This document shows, in pieces, positions 13,373-64,000 of a stretch of DNA of 64,000 nucleotides. Origin of the DNA: a virus. Positions within the stretch are counted from its first letter, which is position 1; each line of letters begins with the position of its first letter. The DNA is taken from positions 62,001 to 126,000 of the IMG/VR virus record IMGVR_UViG_3300042888_001738; one strand, 5' to 3'. The notes beneath the pieces are model-generated. The model was not told where the DNA came from. It made no database searches and saw only the letters and a list, made by a program, of their open reading frames with translations. The translations under genes were made by a program, and so were the position numbers.

Positions 13373-13861
13373 ATGAAAAAAGTAATTAAACTAACTGAAA
13401 GAGATCTTACTAATATTGTCGCTAAAGTGATAAGAGAAGAACAAAAAAGTAAAAAGAGCCTTAATGAAGGTGTATTATTAACTTTAGGTGGACTTGCACT
13501 TGGTGGGGCTGTAATTAAAAAAGCATACGATTATATAAAAAACAGACAACTTAAAAATAATATGTCTGAGACAGGTAACGTTAAAAAATCGAAAGATGGT
13601 AAATTTACCATGAAAGAATATGAAGACAATGAGTCTGGTGAAACGTTTTGGGGTGTTGATGTAACTGACCACACTAGAGGTGAAGGATATGAGGAGAGAC
13701 GAGTTTTATTATTTAAAAACGATCCTGAAAGAATTGAAAAAATCTTAAATTCCGAAGTTAAACATGATTATTCTGATGAGGCGTATATGACAGATGGATA
13801 CGAAGACATGTTCGGACAATTCAAATCCGACAAACGAATTGATTTAGATATCGAAGATTAA
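13373..13861 (+). CDS. Hypothetical protein with N-terminal LTE-type helical leader
   Basis: Unrecognised 162-residue protein transcribed as a single-gene unit between two terminators. It starts MKKVIKLTERDLTNIVAKV followed by IREE, an amphipathic leader with the I-x-E ending of T4-type prohead cleavage sites. A near-copy of this leader (IIFTENELISLIEKMINEE) is found inside the 532-residue protein at 55423. Residues about 32-50 (GVLLTLGGLALGGAVIKKAY) are a short glycine-rich hydrophobic helix that could insert in a membrane. The rest is acidic and soluble, with a YEERRVLLFKNDPERIEKIL segment and an Asp/Glu-rich tail. It could be packaged in the head; no enzyme motif is seen. Confidence 0.75.
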   Translation: MKKVIKLTERDLTNIVAKVIREEQKSKKSLNEGVLLTLGGLALGGAVIKKAYDYIKNRQLKNNMSETGNVKKSKDGKFTMKEYEDNESGETFWGVDVTDHTRGEGYEERRVLLFKNDPERIEKILNSEVKHDYSDEAYMTDGYEDMFGQFKSDKRIDLDIED

Positions 13862-32113: not shown

Positions 32114-34801
32114 ATGGCATTACTAACAGATCAAATATTAGCGACAGGAGTTTCACTTAATGATTTAATACATATTGTTATTACGGGTGATACCTCACAA
32201 AATCCTGCCGGTTCATCGTATAAAGCAACTATTCAACAAGTCGCAACTGCAATTGGTGGTAAAACTGGAACTAGTGGTACTTCGGGTACAAGCGGAACTT
32301 CAGGAAATAGTGGATCTTCAGGGTCTTCAGGTACTAGCGGAATAAATGGTACAAGTGGTACGTCTGGAACAGATGGAACTTCAGGTACAGACGGAACTAG
32401 CGGAACAGATGGAACTTCAGGTACAGACGGAACTAGCGGAACAGATGGATCTTCAGGAACTAGCGGAACTTCGGGTACTAGCGGAACAGATGGAACTAGT
32501 GGAACAGACGGAACTTCAGGATCGAGCGGTTCTTCAGGGACTAGCGGAACAGATGGATCTTCAGGTACTAGCGGAACTTCAGGGACTAGCGGAATAGATG
32601 GAACTAGCGGAACAGATGGGACTAGCGGAACAGATGGAACTTCAGGAACAAATGGGACTAGCGGAACAGACGGAACTTCAGGAACAAATGGGACTAGCGG
32701 AACAGACGGAACTTCAGGATCGAGCGGTTCTTCAGGGACTAGCGGAACAGATGGATCTTCAGGTACTAGCGGAACTTCAGGGACTAGCGGAACAGATGGG
32801 ACTAGCGGAACAAATGGGACTTCAGGAACAAATGGGACTAGCGGAACAAATGGGACTAGCGGAACATCTGGTACGGATGGATCTTCAGGGACTAGTGGAA
32901 CATCTGGATCAAGTGGTAATCCATTAACGGTATATGACTCATCATCAGGAGTAACAGTAACAAATGTTACTGGAATGACTTTCAGTGGATCATCAGTTGT
33001 TGCAAACGGACAGAATGTAATTATTACAATGACAGGGTCAACCGGTACATCCGGATCAAGCGGTACTAGCGGAAACTCAGGTTCTTCAGGTTCTTCAGGA
33101 ACATCTGGATTAAGCGGTACATCTGGTTCGTCAGGAACTAGCGGTAATAGCGGAAGTTCAGGAACATCAGGATCAAGCGGTTCTTCAGGAACATCAGGAT
33201 CAAGCGGTTCTTCAGGAACATCAGGATCAAGCGGTTCTTCAGGAACTTCAGGTTCGAGTGGTACTAGCGGTGCAATCGGAAAAGATGGTAATGATGGATC
33301 AAATTCTGGTAGGTGGATTTACCAATCATCAGCAACAACAACACCATCAATTGCTAACTTCTCAACTGATTCAGACTCCGTTGGTTTTGTATCTAATATT
33401 TACATTAACGATGAGTCAATAAATACTGTTGACTATACTTCATGGTTAGCCGGTATTGATACAATACAAGCAACAGGAAGACCTGTTTATTTACAAATTA
33501 CTCAACTTGGTAATAATAGTATTATTGGTATATGGACCGTAGGTACAATTGGTGTAATCGGTACTGTGTATAGTTTTGGTTCACTTAGTCCTGTTGTAAC
33601 TAACGGAACTTTTAGTGTGGGTGCAACATATACAATATCTTGGGTTTACGATGGTGTTAGTGGAAGTTCAGGTAGTTCAGGTACAAGTGGGTCATCAGGA
33701 TCATCTGGAACTAGCGGAACTTCGGTTATTGTACCAGGATCAAACAACGAAATACTCACCTCAAACGGAGCTGGTGGTATTGTTGCGGAAAACTTAGCGA
33801 CTTTTGATGGTACGACTTTAGCTTTAAATAAAAACAGCACGTCACCTAACATTACCTTAACTGATTCTGGATCAACATCTAATGATGTTTATATTAGGTT
33901 TTCACCAACAGCAACAACCGCAACATATGCGGTAGGTATCGATAAGAGTGACGGCAACACATATAAAATTACATATGGGTCGAATGTAACACCAAGTACC
34001 GGTAGTGCAAGATTAGAAATAACTTCAGGTGGTACAGTAAACATACCAACAAACAGTAACAACACTATATTCAATATAGGAACTGCGGAACAAGTTGGTG
34101 TCTATGCGACTACAACATCATCAGGGTTTAGATTTTATAATGGTTCCAGTAATATGGATCAATATAGTTCGATCATACAATACGATAATTTTTCCGAATA
34201 CACGACAAACGTAGGTAATACAAATAGTGCGGCTATTTCATACTTTACAAATATGGCATTGTCCGGTGAAACAAACTTTGGTTGTAATGCGGGGATTCCT
34301 GATATGACTCTTTTTAACTCGGGATCAACGAGTAACTTCATAATAGGTGGTGCTGGTTTATACGTTAGATATAATTTAAGTGTTGATGGGAAAGTGAGGG
34401 TTGGAACTCAAGGTTCTGGAACTGGAACTGCAAATGTTTATAGAGACCCAACAACAGGTATTTTAGGTCCAATTTCTTCTGACGTTAGATTAAAAACAAA
34501 TATAACACAAATATCGGGAGCAACAGATATTATTTCTAATTTGAGAGGAGTTTACTTTAATTGGGTGAGTAATGAAGATTTTATAATAAGCGATGAATCC
34601 AAACAAGTTGGTTTGATTGCTCAAGAAGTTGATCAGTATTTTCCTGAGGCGGTTACACCTAATGGTGTTAAAGATTATAAATCTGTTAAATATGGTGAAA
34701 TGGTTTCATTACTTATTGAGGGTTTTAAAGAACAGAATGAAGTAATAAAATCTTTACAATCTGAAGTTGAGTTATTGAAACAAAGATTGGATAATCTTTA
34801 A
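32114..34801 (+). CDS. Collagen-like tail fibre with C-terminal S74 intramolecular chaperone
   Basis: Trimeric host-contact fibre. 895 residues. N-terminal anchor (about 1-50), then Gly-X-Y triplets with Ser/Thr/Asp/Asn rather than Pro: residues 52-267, 308-398 and a short block near 514-538. Beta domains lie between and after them. The C-terminal 107 residues are a peptidase S74 chaperone: SSDVRLKTNI at 788-797, GLIAQEVDQYFPEAV, KSVKYGEMVSLLIEGFKEQ, and a heptad tail (IKSLQSEVELLKQRLDNL). In this family the chaperone folds the trimer and cleaves itself off before the Ser of S-D-x-R-L-K, here probably Ser789. The gene lies between the small fibre partner and a glycosyltransferase-like gene. 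Confidence 0.88.
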   Translation: MALLTDQILATGVSLNDLIHIVITGDTSQNPAGSSYKATIQQVATAIGGKTGTSGTSGTSGTSGNSGSSGSSGTSGINGTSGTSGTDGTSGTDGTSGTDGTSGTDGTSGTDGSSGTSGTSGTSGTDGTSGTDGTSGSSGSSGTSGTDGSSGTSGTSGTSGIDGTSGTDGTSGTDGTSGTNGTSGTDGTSGTNGTSGTDGTSGSSGSSGTSGTDGSSGTSGTSGTSGTDGTSGTNGTSGTNGTSGTNGTSGTSGTDGSSGTSGTSGSSGNPLTVYDSSSGVTVTNVTGMTFSGSSVVANGQNVIITMTGSTGTSGSSGTSGNSGSSGSSGTSGLSGTSGSSGTSGNSGSSGTSGSSGSSGTSGSSGSSGTSGSSGSSGTSGSSGTSGAIGKDGNDGSNSGRWIYQSSATTTPSIANFSTDSDSVGFVSNIYINDESINTVDYTSWLAGIDTIQATGRPVYLQITQLGNNSIIGIWTVGTIGVIGTVYSFGSLSPVVTNGTFSVGATYTISWVYDGVSGSSGSSGTSGSSGSSGTSGTSVIVPGSNNEILTSNGAGGIVAENLATFDGTTLALNKNSTSPNITLTDSGSTSNDVYIRFSPTATTATYAVGIDKSDGNTYKITYGSNVTPSTGSARLEITSGGTVNIPTNSNNTIFNIGTAEQVGVYATTTSSGFRFYNGSSNMDQYSSIIQYDNFSEYTTNVGNTNSAAISYFTNMALSGETNFGCNAGIPDMTLFNSGSTSNFIIGGAGLYVRYNLSVDGKVRVGTQGSGTGTANVYRDPTTGILGPISSDVRLKTNITQISGATDIISNLRGVYFNWVSNEDFIISDESKQVGLIAQEVDQYFPEAVTPNGVKDYKSVKYGEMVSLLIEGFKEQNEVIKSLQSEVELLKQRLDNL
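32267..32922 (+). repeat. Gly-X-Y coding tandem repeat block 1
   Basis: About 650 bp of 9-bp-based repeats built on GGAACTAGC, GGAACAGAT and GGATCTTCA units. It includes a 94-bp exact duplication: 32501-32594 equals 32699-32792 (offset 198 bp, 66 residues). Also a 36-bp unit (GGAACAGACGGAACTTCAGG followed by AACAAATGGGACTAGC) in tandem near 32624-32700. All units keep frame. Confidence 0.9.
33037..33290 (+). repeat. Gly-X-Y coding tandem repeat block 2
   Basis: A second in-frame block of Gly-Ser/Thr-Ser triplets, with an 18-27 bp unit (GGATCAAGCGGTTCTTCAGG then AACATCA) repeated several times around 33165-33245. It differs in codon pattern from block 1. Confidence 0.85.
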
Positions 34802-37943: not shown

Positions 37944-40442
37944 ATGGCATACATAATTAAAAATACGTCAGGATTAGTTAACACTCGTGTTACTGATACA
38001 GGTAGACAAAGACTATCTGAAGGTAATTTTAGGATTACATATTTTGCTTTGGGTGATAGTGAGGTTTCATATAACAAACTTCCTAACACTTATAATCAGG
38101 TAAATACGGTTATTTTAGAACCTGAATTTAATGCTCAGAATAGTTCTGGAGTTCCTGAATCTAACAGACAATATGTTAAGTATCCTTATTTAGTTGATGA
38201 GGGTCAAACAAATATATATGGAATTCCTTTTATGGATTCGGGTATTGAGTCTGTTTATAACAGAGCGGCAATGAGAGGATTTTTCACGGGTAATACAACA
38301 GCGTCTACGGTAAATTGGAGTGCACTTGTGAACAATAGTTATGTGGTTACACCTAACTATGTTGTAAACATGTCAACCCTAAATGGTACGAATGAAATTA
38401 CAGTACAGAGAATGGATTGTAATTCGCAAAACGATAATACACCTAGTGTAGGAGATTTCATAACGATTTACTATGATGGTAGAGCAATGACAGATTGTTC
38501 TTGTTCTAATTTCCCAACACCAACACCAAGCGCTTCTGTAGGTCAAACACCAACACCAACGCCAACACCAAGCTCAACAAACGGTAATCCTTGTGCTTCG
38601 CCAACACCGACGCCAACACCTACTAAAACACCTTGTCTAACACCATCAAATACACCACAATGTCCTGTATTACCACCACCTGATTGTTTAAAGAATGTGG
38701 TGAGTTGTTTCTCAATTCTAACCTATAGAATTGTTGCGGTTTGTGGTGACGTATTAACATTGGATAGAACAACACCTGACTTTACAGACTTAGCATCTGA
38801 TTGTTATGGTAGAACATTAATCTATCCACCACAAATGGTACCATTATATGATAGTTTTACACCTGAACCACATTGGGCACAAAGTGTGATTGATTTTGAA
38901 TCTGTTTGTGATACCGATCAATTTGATGTTAAAATTTGGAATATGAATATTCCTTGGACCGAGAGTCCGGCAGGATTGAATTCTAACACATACCAAGATT
39001 ATACTAAATTTGGTTCAGTTAATTATATAGGTCAAAAAGAATACTTTGGTTATACAACCTCAAATGCTCAAACATCTACAGATTCTGTATATTATTATAA
39101 CTCTTTTGGTGAAAAAACTGTTGTTACACCTGAAAACCAAAAGGCAATTGCAATTATCCATTACACTAATCAAACTATTGATTTCTTCTATGGTGAAAAA
39201 TTTGCGTTAGAACCTTACGACGCTCAAAATGCCGATAATACACAAGGTCAAGCGAGAAACTTCAAATTACACATACCAACGTTAATGTGGCATAAAAACC
39301 CTGAATGTTGTTACGGACAAACTTTTTGGGTTGATCCTCCAGGGTTCGATGGTAAAAACCTATTCCAAGTACAATATATTAAATCAAGTATTTCGGATAA
39401 TATGAACCAACCTGGTATGAGATATTATAATCTTTGGGACACATTTGCACAACCAAACGGATTACCAAGTAGAATTGGTAAAGTATTTCCTGACTCTAAA
39501 TTGATCATTATTGATGATGAGGAAATTGTTGCGGCACTTTCATATAAAGCAAACAGAAACTGGACTTTACCAGCACCACAGGTTTCATTAATCACACCAA
39601 ACACTTGCGGGGTTTCAAATACTACAGGGGTTTTAACGGGAGGTGCAGAAACACTATGGGTAACATATAGATTATCTAATACGACAACATTTACAAATTC
39701 TTTACATAGTAATTATTATACAAGTGTTGTTGGTACCGCTAATGTTTGTACACCAGATACTCCACAGAACGTGGCAGTAAGATTTGGTGGTGAGTTTAAT
39801 TGTTTAGTGCAACCAGGATTTAGTCCTACCACTACAACAACAACTATGTCACCAACCACAACAACAACAACTTTAAATCCTATAACAACCACAACAACAA
39901 CTTCTTGTCCTCTTTGTGTCGTACCTGCTGGATTCTACGCAACACAGTTCCAAGTCTTGGCTCAAAAAACGGTTGCAGGACAAAGACCCGATCCGTCATT
40001 ATGGAAACTAATTGATTTTACAGATCAAATTAGTGGTATGTTTATTAATGGTTATGTGACACAAGAGTCTTTAACGGCATCTACATTCGTAGTAACTGCA
40101 GAAAATTATAGTTCGGCACCTTATTATAACCTAAACAACTACATCCAACTACCACAAAATGGTGCAACAGGACAACAATTAAACTTCGGAGACGAATATT
40201 ATTTCTATGGTAATTTGGAAACAGATATCCAAGCAACCATTTACGAAATGAAATATAAGATCAACTTAAGTTTTAATGAGTTCTTGGTATCACAGAACCC
40301 AACATGGACACCTGGTACACCATCTTACGTTACGGAAATTGCATTGTTAGACGATAACCAAGATATTTTGGTGATGTCTAAACTACAATCACCGGTATTA
40401 AGGCAAGGTATTCAACAATACGTTGTGAAGTTAGATTTCTAA
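37944..40442 (+). CDS. Structural fibre/baseplate protein with Pro-Thr linkers
   Basis: Unrecognised 832-residue virion protein. The N-terminus (MAYIIKNTSGLVNTRVTDTG, then RQRLSEGNFRITYFALGDSEVSY) forms a compact domain with a T-D-T-G-R...G-N-F..Y-F.L-G-D-S-E-V pattern. At about residues 190-250 there is a Pro-Thr repeat linker (TPTPTPTPSSTNG, SPTPTPTPTKTPCLTP), and at about 630-655 a poly-Thr linker (TTTTTTMSPTTTTTTLNP). Domains between are beta- and Tyr/Asn-rich. The same Pro-Thr style occurs in the inverted fibre gene at 41161, linking the two. The linkers are encoded by short DNA repeats likely to vary in length. Confidence 0.65.
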   Translation: MAYIIKNTSGLVNTRVTDTGRQRLSEGNFRITYFALGDSEVSYNKLPNTYNQVNTVILEPEFNAQNSSGVPESNRQYVKYPYLVDEGQTNIYGIPFMDSGIESVYNRAAMRGFFTGNTTASTVNWSALVNNSYVVTPNYVVNMSTLNGTNEITVQRMDCNSQNDNTPSVGDFITIYYDGRAMTDCSCSNFPTPTPSASVGQTPTPTPTPSSTNGNPCASPTPTPTPTKTPCLTPSNTPQCPVLPPPDCLKNVVSCFSILTYRIVAVCGDVLTLDRTTPDFTDLASDCYGRTLIYPPQMVPLYDSFTPEPHWAQSVIDFESVCDTDQFDVKIWNMNIPWTESPAGLNSNTYQDYTKFGSVNYIGQKEYFGYTTSNAQTSTDSVYYYNSFGEKTVVTPENQKAIAIIHYTNQTIDFFYGEKFALEPYDAQNADNTQGQARNFKLHIPTLMWHKNPECCYGQTFWVDPPGFDGKNLFQVQYIKSSISDNMNQPGMRYYNLWDTFAQPNGLPSRIGKVFPDSKLIIIDDEEIVAALSYKANRNWTLPAPQVSLITPNTCGVSNTTGVLTGGAETLWVTYRLSNTTTFTNSLHSNYYTSVVGTANVCTPDTPQNVAVRFGGEFNCLVQPGFSPTTTTTTMSPTTTTTTLNPITTTTTTSCPLCVVPAGFYATQFQVLAQKTVAGQRPDPSLWKLIDFTDQISGMFINGYVTQESLTASTFVVTAENYSSAPYYNLNNYIQLPQNGATGQQLNFGDEYYFYGNLETDIQATIYEMKYKINLSFNEFLVSQNPTWTPGTPSYVTEIALLDDNQDILVMSKLQSPVLRQGIQQYVVKLDF

Positions 40443-40496
40443 TAAAACTACAATTTTTATTGTTTTAGGTTATTATAAAATAAAACATTATTGTTT

Positions 40497-41105
40497 ATGG
40501 CAAAAAATTTAAAAAACTCACCTAAAGTTTTAGGTTTGGACGTATCCACAAGAACGATAGGATGGGCTTTATTTGATATTAAGACCCAAGAATTATTAGA
40601 ATTAACTCACATATCACCAAGACCTAAAATGGATAAAGGTGAGGATGATAAACTAAAGGAGTTATTATTAAAATCAGAGGTATTTGCCGAAAAACTCAAA
40701 CAATATAAAGATTTAGGTATTGTGAGAGTTGTAATCGAAGAACCATTATTAAACTCTAATAATATTTACACAATCCAAACACTATTGAGATTTAATAGTT
40801 TTATCTTTAAAGAGATATATAATATTTTGGGTATTGTACCTGAATTCATTTCAACGTACAACTCAAGAAAGTTTGCATTTCCCGATTTAGTACAAGAAAA
40901 TGATAAGAAAAAGTTTGTCTTATTTGGAGGATTTCCAAAAGATGCGGATAAGAAAATGATTATTTGGGAAAAGGTTGCGAAGAAAGAACCTCAAATTAAA
41001 TGGTTATACACTAAAAATAATACCCTTAAAAAAGAAAATTTTGATCAGACCGATGCTTATACCTGTGTGTTAGGATTTATGAGATATAAAGAAATTTGGT
41101 CTTAA
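40497..41105 (+). CDS. RuvC-like Holliday junction resolvase/RNase H-fold nuclease
   Basis: Predicted junction-resolving nuclease. 202 residues from the ATG at 40497; an upstream TTG at 40491 is in frame but adds only two residues and is less likely. Four acidic residues of the RuvC-type RNase H fold are placed as expected: Asp15 (VLGLDVSTRTIGWA), Glu81 (VVIEEPL), and Asp183 and Asp186 (FDQTDAYTC). Basic C-terminal segments could contact DNA. It probably processes recombination intermediates or replication junctions made by UvsX and gp46/47. It ends just before a terminator and a convergent fibre gene. Confidence 0.78.
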   Translation: MAKNLKNSPKVLGLDVSTRTIGWALFDIKTQELLELTHISPRPKMDKGEDDKLKELLLKSEVFAEKLKQYKDLGIVRVVIEEPLLNSNNIYTIQTLLRFNSFIFKEIYNILGIVPEFISTYNSRKFAFPDLVQENDKKKFVLFGGFPKDADKKMIIWEKVAKKEPQIKWLYTKNNTLKKENFDQTDAYTCVLGFMRYKEIWS

Positions 41106-41130
41106 TATCGTTTAATATACCGATAATTTG

Positions 41131-41162
41131 AAATATCGTCTTTATAGACGATATTTTTTTTT
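41131..41162 (+). terminator. Intrinsic terminator between convergent genes
   Basis: AAATATCGTC and GACGATATTT form a 10-bp stem with a 6-nt loop followed by nine T on the + strand. On the opposite strand only a short T run follows the stem, so it mainly serves the resolvase transcript. Confidence 0.8.
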
Positions 41163-42456
41163 ATAAACAAGCCGAACCAACAGGTGTAATTGTGATGTTA
41201 GGTGATGTAGTTGTAGGTACAACTGATGCACAAATTATACTTGATGAAAATGCCGGTATACCCTGAGTTTGAGCTCCGTTACAGTTTGTGTAGTTAAATT
41301 TAAATAAAGTAGGGCTTTGATTATTTACGATGTATTGTAATAATATACAAGGTGTTGAACTCGGTGTTGGTGTAGGTGTGGTTGTTGGTGTTGGTGTTGG
41401 TGTTGCGGTTAAGTTAGGTATACAATTTAAACACGCTCCGTCAACAGACGCACCAATCTCAGTAGTTAATGATATGGTATCATTACCACTTATATTTTCA
41501 AACAAACCTTCATAAACAACACAATACCCCTGACCATTAATCGTTGCATTATAAACGTAACCTTCTTTAGGTGATGTGGTTCCAGATACTAAAACAATAC
41601 CTGATGTGAAGTAATCTATACCTGTAAAACAATCTTTAAATTTCTTACTATTTGCACACTCAAGAATTTCGGAGAATGCATTGAAGATAACTTCACCTGA
41701 GAAATTACAAGGTCTTGTAACTACTGGTGATGGTGAAGGTGTTGGAGTCATTGTTGGTGTTGGAGTTGGTGTATAACCACTAGCCGTTGCTAATAATGAA
41801 ACCCCACCACATGGGTTAGAAGATGTTGGTGTAGGTGTTGGTGTTGGTGTTGCAGTACTTGTAGGTGTTGGTGTTGGTGTTGAAGGGACTAAACAATCAA
41901 AAATTGCGTCAAAATTAAAAGTGGCACAAGGATCAACAGGTGGTGCCGGAGGTGTTACACATAACCCCGGATAACCAACTGTTATATCAAAATCAGGTTC
42001 AGAACTCGTACTCCCAAACGTACCAAATTGAATACACGGTGAACCTACAGCGTTAGACAAACACCACCTACTTTCTACAGTAGAATAATAAATACAAGTA
42101 CTATTTGTTATTGAAGTATAAACAGGATAAGTGTCTTGAACACCAACCATCTGATATTGACCGTTATATCCTGGTTCATTTTGTATACAATATTGAATAC
42201 CACCTGTAGTACAACCCGACATATTACTCACATAATACTGGCTAAAAAGAAAAGAAAATTCTATAACTACATTACCGTTTGAATAAAATCCTGTCGATAT
42301 TATATCTGCCGGATTAGCACAACTTGACCCACTATAAAGAGTTTGGGGTGTTGCAAAGAAATAATTATCCCCATATAAAGTTATGTTTGGTGTTTCATTA
42401 CACAACCCAGTTGACGTACCACTATAAACCCAAAGACCTAAATTATTACAAGCCAT
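41161..42456 (-). CDS. Inverted Cys-rich fibre protein with Pro-Thr linkers
   Basis: Predicted fibre protein of 431 residues on the minus strand. The N-terminal domain (MACNNLGLWVYSGTSTGLCN, LYSGSSCANPADIISTGFYS) is Cys/Ser/Gly-rich. Three Pro-Thr repeat linkers follow (TPTPTPTSTATPTPTPTPTS; TPTPTPTMTPTPSPSP; TPTPTPTTTPTPTPSS), separating small beta domains such as the one at about 240-330 (FSGEVIFNAF, GIVLVSGTTSPKEGYVYNAT). Composition and linkers match the fibre gene at 37944. Its orientation is opposite to all surrounding genes and it follows its small partner (42458-42679) with only one base between. Confidence 0.68.
   Translation of the reverse strand: MACNNLGLWVYSGTSTGLCNETPNITLYGDNYFFATPQTLYSGSSCANPADIISTGFYSNGNVVIEFSFLFSQYYVSNMSGCTTGGIQYCIQNEPGYNGQYQMVGVQDTYPVYTSITNSTCIYYSTVESRWCLSNAVGSPCIQFGTFGSTSSEPDFDITVGYPGLCVTPPAPPVDPCATFNFDAIFDCLVPSTPTPTPTSTATPTPTPTPTSSNPCGGVSLLATASGYTPTPTPTMTPTPSPSPVVTRPCNFSGEVIFNAFSEILECANSKKFKDCFTGIDYFTSGIVLVSGTTSPKEGYVYNATINGQGYCVVYEGLFENISGNDTISLTTEIGASVDGACLNCIPNLTATPTPTPTTTPTPTPSSTPCILLQYIVNNQSPTLFKFNYTNCNGAQTQGIPAFSSSIICASVVPTTTSPNITITPVGSACL
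41361..41406 (+). repeat. GGTGTT hexamer microsatellite
   Basis: Near-perfect repeats of GGTGTT, read as Pro-Thr codons in the minus-strand fibre gene. Similar tracts occur at about 41740-41772 and 41827-41880 in the same gene. Such tracts can change length in steps of two residues. Confidence 0.75.
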
Positions 42457-55422: not shown

Positions 55423-57021
55423 ATGAATAGAACAGAATATATCCGCTCAAGATTTGAAAAAATCTTATCAGAAAATATTAACGAGAAAGCTAACGAAATT
55501 CTTACCAAACTTAATTTGGATAAAGAAGTCCCATTTGATGCTCCTGGAGGACCTTCTGACTATGTACAAGAAGGTGAAACTTGTGAACAGTGTGGTGGTG
55601 AAATGAAGGAAGGTGAAACTTGCGAACAGTGTGGTGGAAAAGGTGAAGTTATGGAGTTAGGTGGTATGGATACAGATCACCCAAAATTCGGTAAGTTAAA
55701 CCTTAAACAGTTGTCTAGAAAAGAATTGGAAAAACTACTTAGTAGTGATGATGAAGAAGAAGATGACGATGAGTGGGAAGAGGTTGATTTAGATGCGGAG
55801 ACTGACTGGTCTAAATTAGAGGAAGAGATTGAGGAAGAACTTCACGGAAAACAACGCAAGTTAGATAAAAATAAAAATGGTAGACTCGATAAAGAAGATT
55901 TCAAGATGTTAAGAAAAAAACACATGGAAGAAAATGACGAAGATACTGAACCTTTATATGAAGTAGAATTTGAATTAGATTTGAATGAATACTCAATGGG
56001 TGACGACGATCTTGAGGTAGTGAAACCATACGGTGATTTCTCAACAGATAGTCCTAATATTAAACCAGGTAGAAACCAAGTTAAAAATGTTGGAGATAAA
56101 TATCAAAGAAAGATCTCTAAAAAATTTGACGATTATGAGTTAGAAGAGGGTGAGACTGAAGAAGGAAATGCGTTTACAGGAGCTTTAGCTCAAGCTAAAA
56201 AAGAAGGTAAAAATTCTTTTGAAGTTGATGGTAAAAAATATGGTGTTAAAGAGTCATATCGCAATAACAAATCTAAAGTGACCAAAAATATTATTTTTAC
56301 AGAGAACGAACTTATCTCCCTTATCGAAAAAATGATTAACGAAGAGAAAAACTCTTTCAATATGAAAGAACCTAAAGGGTATGTTGAATATGAGAAAGCA
56401 CACAAAAAAGATAAGAAAGAAAACGAAGATTATTTAAAGAGTGTTGCTAAAAAAATGACTGACTACCTTAAAGGTGCATCTGATGGAGGGTCTAAATATG
56501 AAATGAAAGAAACTCAAAAATTCCCAACTGAAAATGGTGGAATGAAAAAAGGTAACAGAAAGAAATATACACCATCTGATGCTGTTGATGAATATATCGA
56601 TGCATTCTCATATCCTGGTCAAACTAATTTAGTGTATGATGAGATTAAACCTAATGATGAGTGGATTGAAGCTAATTTAGTTGGTTCTTCTAAAACAGGT
56701 AATGCTCAAGTTGATAAAGACGGAAATGCGTTAGGTAATGTTGTACCAAGTGAGGTAGGTGAAAAATTCCTTAAAAACTTCAGAGACAACCTTTACGGTC
56801 AAGAACAAATGGATGCGTCATATCAAAGACAACCACAACCTGTTGATCAAGCTGGTGAGACTACTGAAAGAGGTACTCTTAAATCTAAAAGAGGTAAAAA
56901 AACGGCTCAAAGTGTACTTAACAAGTTAGACGAATCTGTTAATGAAAAAGAAACTCTAAAGTTAAATGAGGAATTTAACAGAATACAACAGTTAATGGGG
57001 TACCAACAAAAAACACAATAA
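55423..57021 (+). CDS. Acidic protein with zinc-ribbon and EF-hand-like loops
   Basis: Unrecognised 532-residue, very acidic protein that looks multi-domain. N-terminal helix (NRTEYIRSRFEKILSE). Four Cys, 54, 57, 67 and 70, in two copies of EGETCEQCGG form a zinc ribbon. An Asp/Glu tract (about 106-125) precedes an EF-hand-like loop: D148-K-N-K-N-G-R-L-D-K-E-D159. Around 245-275 there is AFTGALAQAKKEGKNSFEVD, and at about 290-310 an internal IIFTENELISLIEKMINEE that matches the leader of the protein at 13373. The C-terminus is NEEFNRIQQLMGYQQ. Likely a head-core/internal or scaffold-type protein; the motifs suggest Zn and Ca binding. Confidence 0.7.
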   Translation: MNRTEYIRSRFEKILSENINEKANEILTKLNLDKEVPFDAPGGPSDYVQEGETCEQCGGEMKEGETCEQCGGKGEVMELGGMDTDHPKFGKLNLKQLSRKELEKLLSSDDEEEDDDEWEEVDLDAETDWSKLEEEIEEELHGKQRKLDKNKNGRLDKEDFKMLRKKHMEENDEDTEPLYEVEFELDLNEYSMGDDDLEVVKPYGDFSTDSPNIKPGRNQVKNVGDKYQRKISKKFDDYELEEGETEEGNAFTGALAQAKKEGKNSFEVDGKKYGVKESYRNNKSKVTKNIIFTENELISLIEKMINEEKNSFNMKEPKGYVEYEKAHKKDKKENEDYLKSVAKKMTDYLKGASDGGSKYEMKETQKFPTENGGMKKGNRKKYTPSDAVDEYIDAFSYPGQTNLVYDEIKPNDEWIEANLVGSSKTGNAQVDKDGNALGNVVPSEVGEKFLKNFRDNLYGQEQMDASYQRQPQPVDQAGETTERGTLKSKRGKKTAQSVLNKLDESVNEKETLKLNEEFNRIQQLMGYQQKTQ

Positions 57022-61497: not shown

Positions 61498-62874
61498 ATG
61501 TCATTACTTTTTAAAAACCTACTGAAAGATCTTATTGTGGAAAATTCTCGTTTCCAAGTTCTTTATAACAAATTCGTGAAACCAAAAGATAAGGGTCAAA
61601 AAGGTATATTACCTTTTGAAACACTATTCGCATTAATTGCTGCTGACCCTACGTCTAGTTTCCCTGATGGTATGGATATAGACAACGTAACACCAAAAGA
61701 TATGGATCGAGTTAAGATCGGTAAATACACTCAGTGGTTATTGAAAAACTTTATCACCCCAAAATTGGAATCAAATCACCCATTAAATATTTTGGACCCT
61801 CAATCTGGCCAATATAAATCTGCTTTAAAAGAGTTCCAACACTTATTTATGGAAGACTTATATAAGGTGACTGGTGACCTTAAAAAATTTGAAAGATTCA
61901 AAAATCGTTTACCGCAAGAACTTCGTGACATTAATAAGTTGACAGTAGATACGTTGTATGATCAAGTTAAAGACTTCAGTTTAGAAAAAACTAAGGCAAC
62001 TAAAGATGAGAAAAAAGCGGCTTCTAAAACTTATGAACACCCAGGTGCTGATGTTGTTTATCGTGGTCAAGATTGGACGGTTGCTAAAATTTCTGATACA
62101 GGTCAAATCGGTAAAGACGCGGCTTGTTTCTATGGTGGTTCATACCAAGAGCCAGGTAAAGGTGAAACAAGATGGTGTACGTCATCACCAGGATTAACTT
62201 GGTTTGATAGGTACATTAAAGATGGACCATTATATGTGGTAATTCCAAATAAAGGAACCACATTCCAAGGACAAAAAGAATTAGGTGATGTATCTGGTCT
62301 TCCAGCACTTCGTTATCAATTCCACTTCCCATCTAATCAGTTTATGGATCCTGCCGACAGACAGATCAATTTGATTGATTTCTTGAATACAAATGAGGAA
62401 GGTTTGAAACAATTCTTTAAGCCTGAGTTTATGAAATCATTATCAGGTGATAAAGGAAGTAAAGTACAAGTGGAATATCCTAATGACTCGGCATCGAAGT
62501 TCATAGCCCTTTATGGATTTGATGAGTTCTTTGAATCATTACCTGATAACCTTGAAAGATTCACATTCAAGAATTCAAGTAGAGATAGTAAGTTTGCACT
62601 TAACATTCCTGAGGACATCGGTAGATTTAAAAATCTTACAGCACTTAATTTAGTAGGGTGTGTTGCTTCGATTCCTGAATCTATCTGTAACTTACCTAAC
62701 CTACAATATTTGTCTTTACCTGACAACCCACAACTTCAAAAATTACCGGAATGTATTGGTAACATGGAAAACTTGATGGTATTGAATATACCTGGAGGCG
62801 GAGGTAAAGGAGTAATTCCAAAATCTGTTTATGACAGAGCAGAAAGAGATGAAGACTTCCACATCTTTGAATAA
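61498..62874 (+). CDS. Leucine-rich-repeat protein with WCTS core domain
   Basis: Unrecognised 458-residue protein in three parts. N-terminal helical region (about 1-180) whose first 16 residues (MSLLFKNLLKDLIVE) end I-V-E as in the other leader-type proteins. The middle (about 185-300) has a distinctive W-C-T-S at 226-229 inside KGETRWCTSSPGLTWFDRYI, then GPLYVVIPNKG; a similar W-C-T....F..Y...G-P-L-Y pattern is known to me from hypothetical phage proteins. The C-terminus (about 375-445) is a leucine-rich repeat: FKNLTALNLVGCVASIPESI, LPNLQYLSLPDNPQLQKLPE. LRRs usually bind proteins. It may be an injected effector; not proven. A terminator follows. Confidence 0.7.
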   Translation: MSLLFKNLLKDLIVENSRFQVLYNKFVKPKDKGQKGILPFETLFALIAADPTSSFPDGMDIDNVTPKDMDRVKIGKYTQWLLKNFITPKLESNHPLNILDPQSGQYKSALKEFQHLFMEDLYKVTGDLKKFERFKNRLPQELRDINKLTVDTLYDQVKDFSLEKTKATKDEKKAASKTYEHPGADVVYRGQDWTVAKISDTGQIGKDAACFYGGSYQEPGKGETRWCTSSPGLTWFDRYIKDGPLYVVIPNKGTTFQGQKELGDVSGLPALRYQFHFPSNQFMDPADRQINLIDFLNTNEEGLKQFFKPEFMKSLSGDKGSKVQVEYPNDSASKFIALYGFDEFFESLPDNLERFTFKNSSRDSKFALNIPEDIGRFKNLTALNLVGCVASIPESICNLPNLQYLSLPDNPQLQKLPECIGNMENLMVLNIPGGGGKGVIPKSVYDRAERDEDFHIFE

Positions 62875-62892
62875 GATTGAACTCAAATATAT

Positions 62893-62921
62893 AACCCACC
62901 TTCATGGTGGGTTTTTTATTT
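62893..62921 (+). terminator. Intrinsic terminator
   Basis: AACCCACC and GGTGGGTT form an 8-bp stem with a 5-nt loop and a T tract. Confidence 0.88.
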
Positions 62922-62928
62922 TATAGGG

Positions 62929-62935
62929 TATTTAT
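62929..62935 (+). promoter_or_regulatory. TATTTAT motif, candidate promoter element
   Basis: TATTTAT begins 8 nt after a terminator and ends 5 nt before the ATG at 62941: the arrangement expected of a promoter with a very short leader. Confidence 0.5.
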
Positions 62936-62940
62936 CATAT

Positions 62941-63342
62941 ATGAAAATAATCATTACAGAATCACAACTTAGTCTCCTTAAAGAAAGTTCAATTGTTGAT
63001 ATGGATCTTCAGGAACTATATGATAGGGCTTTGAAATTAAAGAAGGTGGTTACCAGAATGATTAAAAAAGAATTGGAGGATTATTATTGGTTTGATGATT
63101 TACAGGTTGATATTGATAGAGATTGGGGAGGTCTTCCTGTTTACAATTTTATACTCAAAATAAATTTATCAATACCTAACGATGAATTTTATAGTAAAAA
63201 ATTAGGTAAAGAACTCCATGATAAAATAGGTGATGTCTTTAGTGAATATTTCCCACATGTCAATAAACATACTCAATATAATTTGACAGGTACTTGGGCG
63301 GGGTTTATCCAAGACAATGAACTCTTTACAATTATTATTTAA
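62941..63342 (+). CDS. Hypothetical protein with ITES-type N-terminal leader, copy 1
   Basis: Unrecognised 133-residue protein. Starts MKIIITESQLSLLKE, a 15-residue segment repeated with small changes at the start of the next two genes; Leu-Lys-Glu at its end matches the (L/I)xE prohead-protease rule. The body (LQELYDRALKLKKVVTRMIK, then YWFDDLQVDIDRDWGGLPVY) is a helix plus a beta-rich region, differs from its neighbours, and ends TGTWAGFIQDNELFTIII. No membrane helix or enzyme motif. First of a series of three. Confidence 0.75.
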   Translation: MKIIITESQLSLLKESSIVDMDLQELYDRALKLKKVVTRMIKKELEDYYWFDDLQVDIDRDWGGLPVYNFILKINLSIPNDEFYSKKLGKELHDKIGDVFSEYFPHVNKHTQYNLTGTWAGFIQDNELFTIII

Positions 63343-63345
63343 GAC

Positions 63346-63352
63346 TATTTAT
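63346..63352 (+). promoter_or_regulatory. TATTTAT motif, candidate promoter element
   Basis: TATTTAT begins 3 nt after the preceding stop and ends 5 nt before the ATG at 63358. Confidence 0.42.
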
Positions 63353-63357
63353 TCAAT

Positions 63358-63732
63358 ATGAAATTCCTAATCACTCAAGAACAATTTGATTTATTGAACG
63401 AAGTTTATAGAAGAGATCGTTTTGATGCTGAGTATAGTGACGAATACCCAAAGTATAAAAGTATGTTTATAAAGACCTTGAAAAAGGACGTTACATCTTG
63501 GGGTGAAGCTCATGGATCGATATATCTAATGGGTTCGGAGGGTCAAGCTCTATTTGCGTACAGAAAAGGATCTAAAACTTTATATTATGATTATTCCATT
63601 GATCGTGAAATGGAAGACGTGATTCCTAATCATATAGTATCAAGACATTTAAAGAACGCAGTATACGACTACTTCAAAGGACTATTTCCTGATGTAGAAA
63701 TAAAAGAAGTAAGTGGTGCAAATATTGGTTAG
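63358..63732 (+). CDS. Hypothetical protein with ITQE-type N-terminal leader, copy 2
   Basis: Unrecognised 124-residue protein. The leader MKFLITQEQFDLLNE corresponds to that of the genes before and after. The body has a basic, aromatic N-terminal half (VYRRDRFDAEYSDEYPKYKS, IKTLKKDVTSWGEAHGSIYL) and an alternating-strand segment (ALFAYRKGSKTLYYDYSIDR), ending with a helix. It is unlike the bodies of its neighbours. Ends with TAG two bases before the next ATG. Confidence 0.75.
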   Translation: MKFLITQEQFDLLNEVYRRDRFDAEYSDEYPKYKSMFIKTLKKDVTSWGEAHGSIYLMGSEGQALFAYRKGSKTLYYDYSIDREMEDVIPNHIVSRHLKNAVYDYFKGLFPDVEIKEVSGANIG

Positions 63733-63734
63733 TT

Positions 63735-64000
63735 ATGAAAATAATAATATCTGATAACCAATATAGTCTTTTAAAAGAATCAATTAATCTTAAAAATATT
63801 GAGGGAATTAAAAAGTATTGGAGAAACCAACAAAAAAAAGGTGAACAAATTAGATTTAGTAAAGAAGAATTGGAATTTTGGGGTATCACTAAAAGACAAG
63901 AAAAATTTTATGCTCAAGCCGCATTTCGAGAATTAGTTGGGGATGAAGTATTTACTAAAAAATTTATTAAACAATTAATTGGTAAAACATTTTCAACAAA
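63735..64000 (+). CDS. Hypothetical protein with ISDN-type N-terminal leader, copy 3, 3'-partial
   Basis: The frame is open to the window end (88 codons seen). The leader MKIIISDNQYSLLKE is the third version of the tandem motif. The body is basic and helical (IEGIKKYWRNQQKKGEQIRF, then SKEELEFWGITKRQEKFYAQ), suggesting nucleic-acid or protein binding. The C-terminus lies outside the window. The leader is close to copy 1 in DNA too. Confidence 0.7.
   Translation, partial: MKIIISDNQYSLLKESINLKNIEGIKKYWRNQQKKGEQIRFSKEELEFWGITKRQEKFYAQAAFRELVGDEVFTKKFIKQLIGKTFST

Follow-up and report, generated by a model that had tools for sequence, protein, structure and literature searches.

Why should neighbouring genes of a phage begin with the same short peptide and then encode proteins that have nothing else in common? 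The question is raised by the end of the window, the 64,000-nucleotide stretch of DNA analysed here, which covers positions 62001-126000 of a viral contig; the contig, 129,811 bases long, is itself a fragment. Three plus-strand genes lie there side by side. The first (62941..63342, 133 aa) starts MKIIITESQLSLLKE/SSIVDMDL..., with its leader at 62941-62985; the second (63358..63732, 124 aa) starts MKFLITQEQFDLLNE/VYRRDRFDAEY... (leader 63358-63402); the third (63735..64000) starts MKIIISDNQYSLLKE/SINLKNIEG... (leader 63735-63779) and is truncated by the window end. Here and below the slash marks the end of a leader or a putative cut. The third gene is complete in the full contig, where it encodes 184 aa and ends at contig position 126289. 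The first-pass annotation had claimed that these genes share their starts, that the proteins are unrelated beyond them and that the leader is a T4-like capsid-targeting sequence (CTS). The shared starts were confirmed exactly, and the bodies proved mutually unrelated in BLASTP (E about 0.1 or worse), but the phenomenon is much larger than was noted at that stage.

A fourth leader gene, at contig 126286-126873, lies just beyond the window and reads MKIIITESQYSMLSE... (MKIIITESQYSMLSEENLRKF). Its start overlaps the last four bases of gene 63735, and the bodies of the third and fourth genes are distant paralogues (direct E 0.01; joined via intermediates). Immediately upstream of the three genes, an LRR-containing protein of 458 aa is encoded on the plus strand at 61498..62874 (LRR_14, E 6.7e-7), and its leader, MSLLFKNLLKDLIVE/NSRFQ at 61498-61542, is of another type with I13-x-E15, which had been missed. 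The leaders end in LKE (62941), LNE (63358), LKE (63735) and IVE (61498). Since 61498 has its own leader and four leader genes follow it, the cluster includes at least five leader genes and two leader types. A terminator-like hairpin read from the sequence (plus strand, 62894..62912; ACCCACC-TTCAT-GGTGGGT, then a T run) sits between the LRR gene and the downstream cluster. Elsewhere in the window, a class-B leader gene, classified by pattern (13373..13861, plus strand, 162 aa; MKKVIKLTERDLTNIVAKVIRE/EQKSKK...), adjoins a baseplate-type gene and has TATTTAT upstream.

No convincing Pfam or PHROGs match was found for genes 62941-63735. A relative of gene 62941 with 71% identity (L184) occurs in contig G017, which carries both an S77 (gp21-type) protease and a gp23 capsid gene; tblastn of gene 62941 against annotated phages gave no match. 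Three other large proteins of the contig were recorded separately. An acidic 532-aa protein at window 55423-57021 has the leader-like sequence KNIIFTENELISLIEKMINEEK in its interior, and its C-terminal EEFNRIQQLMGYQ is similar to a different class of leader. The 895-aa product of window 32114-34801 contains a long SSGTSGTDGTSG repeat array and is probably a fibre protein. Outside the window, contig 39913-42108 (minus strand; L003:913-3108) encodes a 731-aa protein with a HEWVHEH metallopeptidase-like start. The Pfam match of this protein to a Fe/Mn superoxide dismutase domain has E 1e-40, its linkers are rich in LxE, and it could be a cleavable polyprotein.

The spread of the leader was followed with a strict DNA-level pattern for MKIIITE[S/R/T]Q, run over viral contigs. 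It returned at least 136 matches in at least 120 stretches, nearly all of them true ORF starts. The bodies behind the strict leader form 47 clusters without detectable similarity to one another; window gene 63358, with a variant of the leader, is one of the 47. The strict pattern had no match in 257 Gb of sequence from 84,980 bacterial or archaeal genomes. This zero is meaningful because a relaxed pattern gave 40 single, scattered matches in bacterial and archaeal genomes, so the scan works. The shared leader is not a product of chance.

The common start might be a DNA or RNA signal, such as a promoter or translation enhancer, with the peptide as a by-product. In favour of this, the motif TATTTAT stands 11-12 nt 5' of many leader ATGs. 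In the window it occurs on the plus strand at 62929..62935 and 63346..63352, in each case 12 nt 5' of the ATG of genes 62941 and 63358, respectively. Of 112 genes in the window's contig, 23 have it within 22 nt of the ATG; the expectation is less than 1% per gene. On visual inspection the 23 are leader genes and genes of structural type, with no replication genes seen. The motif is commoner before leader genes than before others in each of the four contigs tested, with Fisher p from 0.03 to 7e-4, and among strict-leader genes it lies within 20 nt in 54 of 116, mostly 11-12 nt before the ATG. Transcripts may therefore have almost no 5' leader. The motif is likely a late promoter, by inference only and without transcript data. 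Against the nucleic-acid explanation, 116 strict leaders comprise 77 distinct 27-mers, with free variation between synonymous codons, from which it follows that selection acts on the peptide, and the explanation was rejected on this ground. The invariant leader Glu and the substitution of unrelated leader classes on the same body, both described below, also speak against it, and it is all but excluded.

In the strict leader, L or I occupies position 13 in 96% (cluster-weighted, as is the next value), and Glu stands at position 15 or 16 in about half. The motif [IL]xE reaches 26% with its end at position 15 and 15% with its end at position 16, compared with 1.3% per position in bodies. A looser [ILVMF]xE ending at positions 12-24 is present in 37 of the 47 clusters versus 31% of random body windows. 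After the Glu, at P1', the frequencies are 8% for A and 20% for S, against backgrounds of 3% and 7%. P1' Glu is common in leader classes C and E, which makes the exact cut ambiguous (KE/E or KEE/). The first-pass statement that the leaders fit (L/I)xE "exactly" was too strong: no usable LxE is present in 10 of the 47 body clusters, and in a few the P1 residue is Asp. For bodies without LxE, docking without cleavage is conceivable. As a separate observation, seven loci (L039, L052, L068, L077, L092, L112 and L114) encode proteins of about 100 aa, one of them longer, with an LRRR or LKRR motif after the MKIIITESQ leader; some have no LxE near the leader.

Conservation of the Glu was demonstrated in the families of two window genes. 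An alignment of 20 sequences of the 61498 family shows no variation at I13 or E15. The Glu is kept in all listed homologues, the distant ones of which start MKFNQIIKSIIVE/QGRYE. The 63358 family has 31 loci, and in 20 aligned members M1, L12 and E15 are the sole invariant leader residues; P2 is variable while E15 does not change. The body of 63358 is found behind other leaders too, as MKNLIRKILKEE/TFSRDWMDAEY and MEHLIRKILLQE/TFGRDRWDAEY, so that the junction LLNE/VYRRDRFDAEY can be set against ILKEE/TFSRDWMDAEY and ILLQE/TFGRDRWDAEY. The leaders of both families have low pLDDT and lie outside the modelled fold in AlphaFold models, which are both of modest quality. For 61498, residues 1-29 are below 50; for 63358, residues 1-10 and 13-16 are below 50, and most of the body is at 70-83. 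A fold search of the 63358 model against the PDB gave no match below E 0.001.

A protease suited to this motif occurs in the same phage group. Of 26 leader-bearing contigs examined for both genes, 11 have the S77 protease, exactly those 11 have the gp23 capsid gene, and the other 15 have neither. The His and Ser motifs are intact in all eight proteases read. In G010 the S77 protease gene lies at 102907-103614. A gp21-type protease is thus present in 11 of 11 related gp23 contigs. In the window's contig the S77 search was negative and the gp23 gene is absent as well, because the capsid region is missing from the fragment. The capsid proteins of the group read [FH]LINE/A where T4 gp23 has FLTE/A. 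That LINE/A is the capsid-protein maturation site is an inference made from sequence alone, and the cut itself was not observed.

These data bear on a second alternative, in which the leaders dock the proteins on a component of the head, tail or core without being cleaved, and LxE is part of a binding helix. It is favoured by the 10 clusters without LxE and the few with Asp for Glu, and by the finding that Asp at CTS position 10 of T4 IPIII stops processing and permits targeting (PMC9026906). It is opposed by the invariance of the Glu while P2 varies, by the same site in the capsid proteins and by the enrichment of A and S at P1'. Uncleaved docking is hence regarded as unlikely, and a cleaved CTS remains the preferred reading.

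The MKIIITESQ leader is not the only one. Further families read in related contigs include MKxIIRLTESDLxRIVxRVIxE, MKxLIxxILKEE, MNLQEQINRIxSMMG, MNLQEHIRKVLREE, ITESEKxRILxMH and MFGYKPGxVLSEQ, and the related T4-like phages show seven or more families on 7-26% of genes. Leader patterns were found on 24 of 189 genes in G008, 46 of 180 in G010, 29 of 335 in G003, 38 of 388 in G004 and 7 of 111 in the window's contig. The class patterns were composed after reading the related contigs and have an internal-Met false-positive rate of 0.2%. Among controls they gave 0 of 61 genes in T4 (50 kb), 1 of 69 in Tenacibaculum phage pT24 and 0 of 65 in Cellulophaga phage phiST. The first 50 kb of Microcystis phage Mel-JY01, a close capsid match among annotated phages, contained no leader class. 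Contig G004 (268 kb) encodes the S77 protease and gp23 twice each, in different types. It may be a chimaeric assembly or an unusual phage, and with two capsid gene sets its counts may mix two phages.

An N-terminal excess of [ILV]xE over internal windows was detected genome-wide in four related contigs (p 9e-9, 3e-10, 2e-5 and 1e-10) and in the isolate immuto (p 0.007). No such excess was found in pT24, phiST, T4 (50 kb) or the window's contig as a whole. Since T4 itself, over its 50-kb control stretch, did not reach significance, this genome-wide test would miss CTS genes that are few in number.

In each of the five contigs tested, leaders of one family are adjacent to one another more often than 2000 shuffles ever produced. 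The longest single-type run seen is in G008 (119414-123682), where eight consecutive genes start with M[KR][IV]II[NS]ExQ[LY][RK]xI[IL]E. Homologous bodies carry different leaders, with the junction at or near xE, in 93 cross-class pairs; exclusion of look-alike class pairs leaves 85 swap pairs in 13 families. One body follows four leaders, LIKE/AVGVPENI, LLRE/AVGVPANI, VLRE/AVGIPEGI and LLSE/AVGVPKSI, and another is seen as LILE/ATEGLDEF versus ILKE/ETEGIDVF. The start of the alignment in these pairs was scattered from -11 to +15 residues around LxE, which counts against the CTS reading. Because homologous bodies stand behind different leaders, the leaders are modular tags. The same data dispose of a third alternative, according to which the genes are old duplicates whose bodies diverged past recognition while the start was retained. 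The distant paralogy of the third and fourth cluster genes agrees with it. The bodies are, however, of different kinds (sigma factor, lysozyme, LRR, DHH-like), and one body can stand behind unrelated leaders. Simple duplication was rejected because of the swaps and is next to ruled out.

The tagged bodies include a sigma-70-type factor, lysozyme plus LysM, DHH-like and LRR proteins, and a protein with GDSL plus peptidoglycan binding plus SLT transglycosylase. Zinc-protease-like and ADP-ribosyltransferase-like bodies were recognized by eye, and no family model confirmed either. The nearest annotated relatives of these uncultured T4-like phages include Flavobacterium phage immuto by capsid protein, and Cellulophaga and Tenacibaculum phages by RNR; Bacteroidota hosts are probable on this basis, by inference. 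A fourth alternative is that the leaders address the proteins elsewhere, for example to the membrane, a replication compartment or the host surface. Nothing supports it directly, though muralytic proteins occur among the bodies, with lysozyme plus LysM or with SLT transglycosylase. Inspection revealed no Sec-like hydrophobic core, the Glu motif fits the S77 protease, and the late-promoter-like motif is common to leader genes and structural genes. Another address is thus very improbable, and capsid targeting is again preferred.

The known system closest to this arrangement is that of the T4 internal proteins. In T4, the gp21 protease cleaves behind L/I-X-E; for IPIII, residues 1-10 suffice for head targeting (PMC9026906). 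The gp21-cut CTS of IPII and IPIII (and IPI) is MKTYQEFIAE, and ipII and ipIII read MKTYQEFIAE/A. As in T4, a short N-terminal leader is placed on unrelated proteins, (I/L)xE is followed by a small residue, a gp21-type protease is present, and the same motif stands at the inferred capsid-protein maturation site. Unlike T4, there are several leader families and not one, they are found on 7-26% of genes and not on a handful, and they are swapped between bodies. Their sequences are not related to MKTYQEFIAE or the IP bodies; the window leader proteins have no Pfam or PHROG match to the T4 IPI/IPII/IPIII families and so show no homology to the IP bodies. The N-terminus of T4 gp24, MAKINELLRE/S, closely resembles class-C leaders such as MKDLIKKLLRE/A, but gp24 is a shell protein, whereas class-C bodies are varied cargo-like proteins.

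Among isolates, Flavobacterium phage vB_FspM_immuto (MW353175) is T4-like and has gp20, an S77-type protease and gp23 (QIVSE/A). It has repeated leaders of its own, e.g., FDLKKFLVENKLTxNSxLL and MKKSxLRxIIKE, whose families differ from those of this group; no MKIIITESQ-class leader was found in the 50 kb read. In the giant phages SPN3US and phiKZ, many of the head proteins undergo cleavage behind a Glu motif and are ejected (PMC9026906, PMC5694885). They differ in that protease and motif are diverged and short shared leaders on unrelated bodies are not a described feature. No report of CTS in Bacteroidota phages, or similar survey, was found in the literature searched.

Taken as a whole, the leaders are likely T4-type capsid-targeting sequences expanded into several exchangeable families. 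The original CTS claim is supported by several independent lines, namely swaps at or near xE, the Glu invariant in the families of two window genes, (L/I)xE/A in gp23-type capsid proteins, S77 wherever the capsid gene is present and late-promoter-like motifs. That the tagged proteins dock, are cleaved, packaged and injected, and that their bodies then act in the host, remains inferred, and no virion proteomics for these phages was found. The claim that the proteins are packaged and injected is consistent with the data at this level; for an anti-defence or host-takeover role there is no direct evidence. In the proposed mechanism, tagged proteins would be made late in infection from the late promoter, and the N-terminal tag of 12-25 residues would dock the protein on the prohead core. 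The gp21-type protease would then cut after (I/L)xE, as in capsid-protein maturation, and the freed body would remain in the head and exit with the DNA. Tag families would be exchanged freely between bodies, and a cargo gene that gains a tag would yield a packaged protein.

A bolder reading, which is slightly less likely than not, is that of multi-address packaging, with several leader families loading dozens of different proteins into one head, among them sigma factors, lysozymes and LRR, DHH-like and protease-like bodies. Each family might be read by a different core partner or serve a different cargo set. If true, this would give these phages an unusually large injected protein arsenal that is readable from sequence alone. 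Proteins injected by phages are often non-essential and fast-evolving and are, for that reason, difficult to identify. If the leaders are CTS, a 15-residue pattern would list the injected arsenal of a whole environmental phage group, with 24-46 genes per contig (by patterns, in four related contigs) and predicted mature N-termini, and these genes would be candidates for early host takeover and counter-defence. Work on T4 suggests that the CTS is the route by which T4-like phages recruit varied internal proteins (PMC9026906); under the same proviso, this suggestion would become directly testable.
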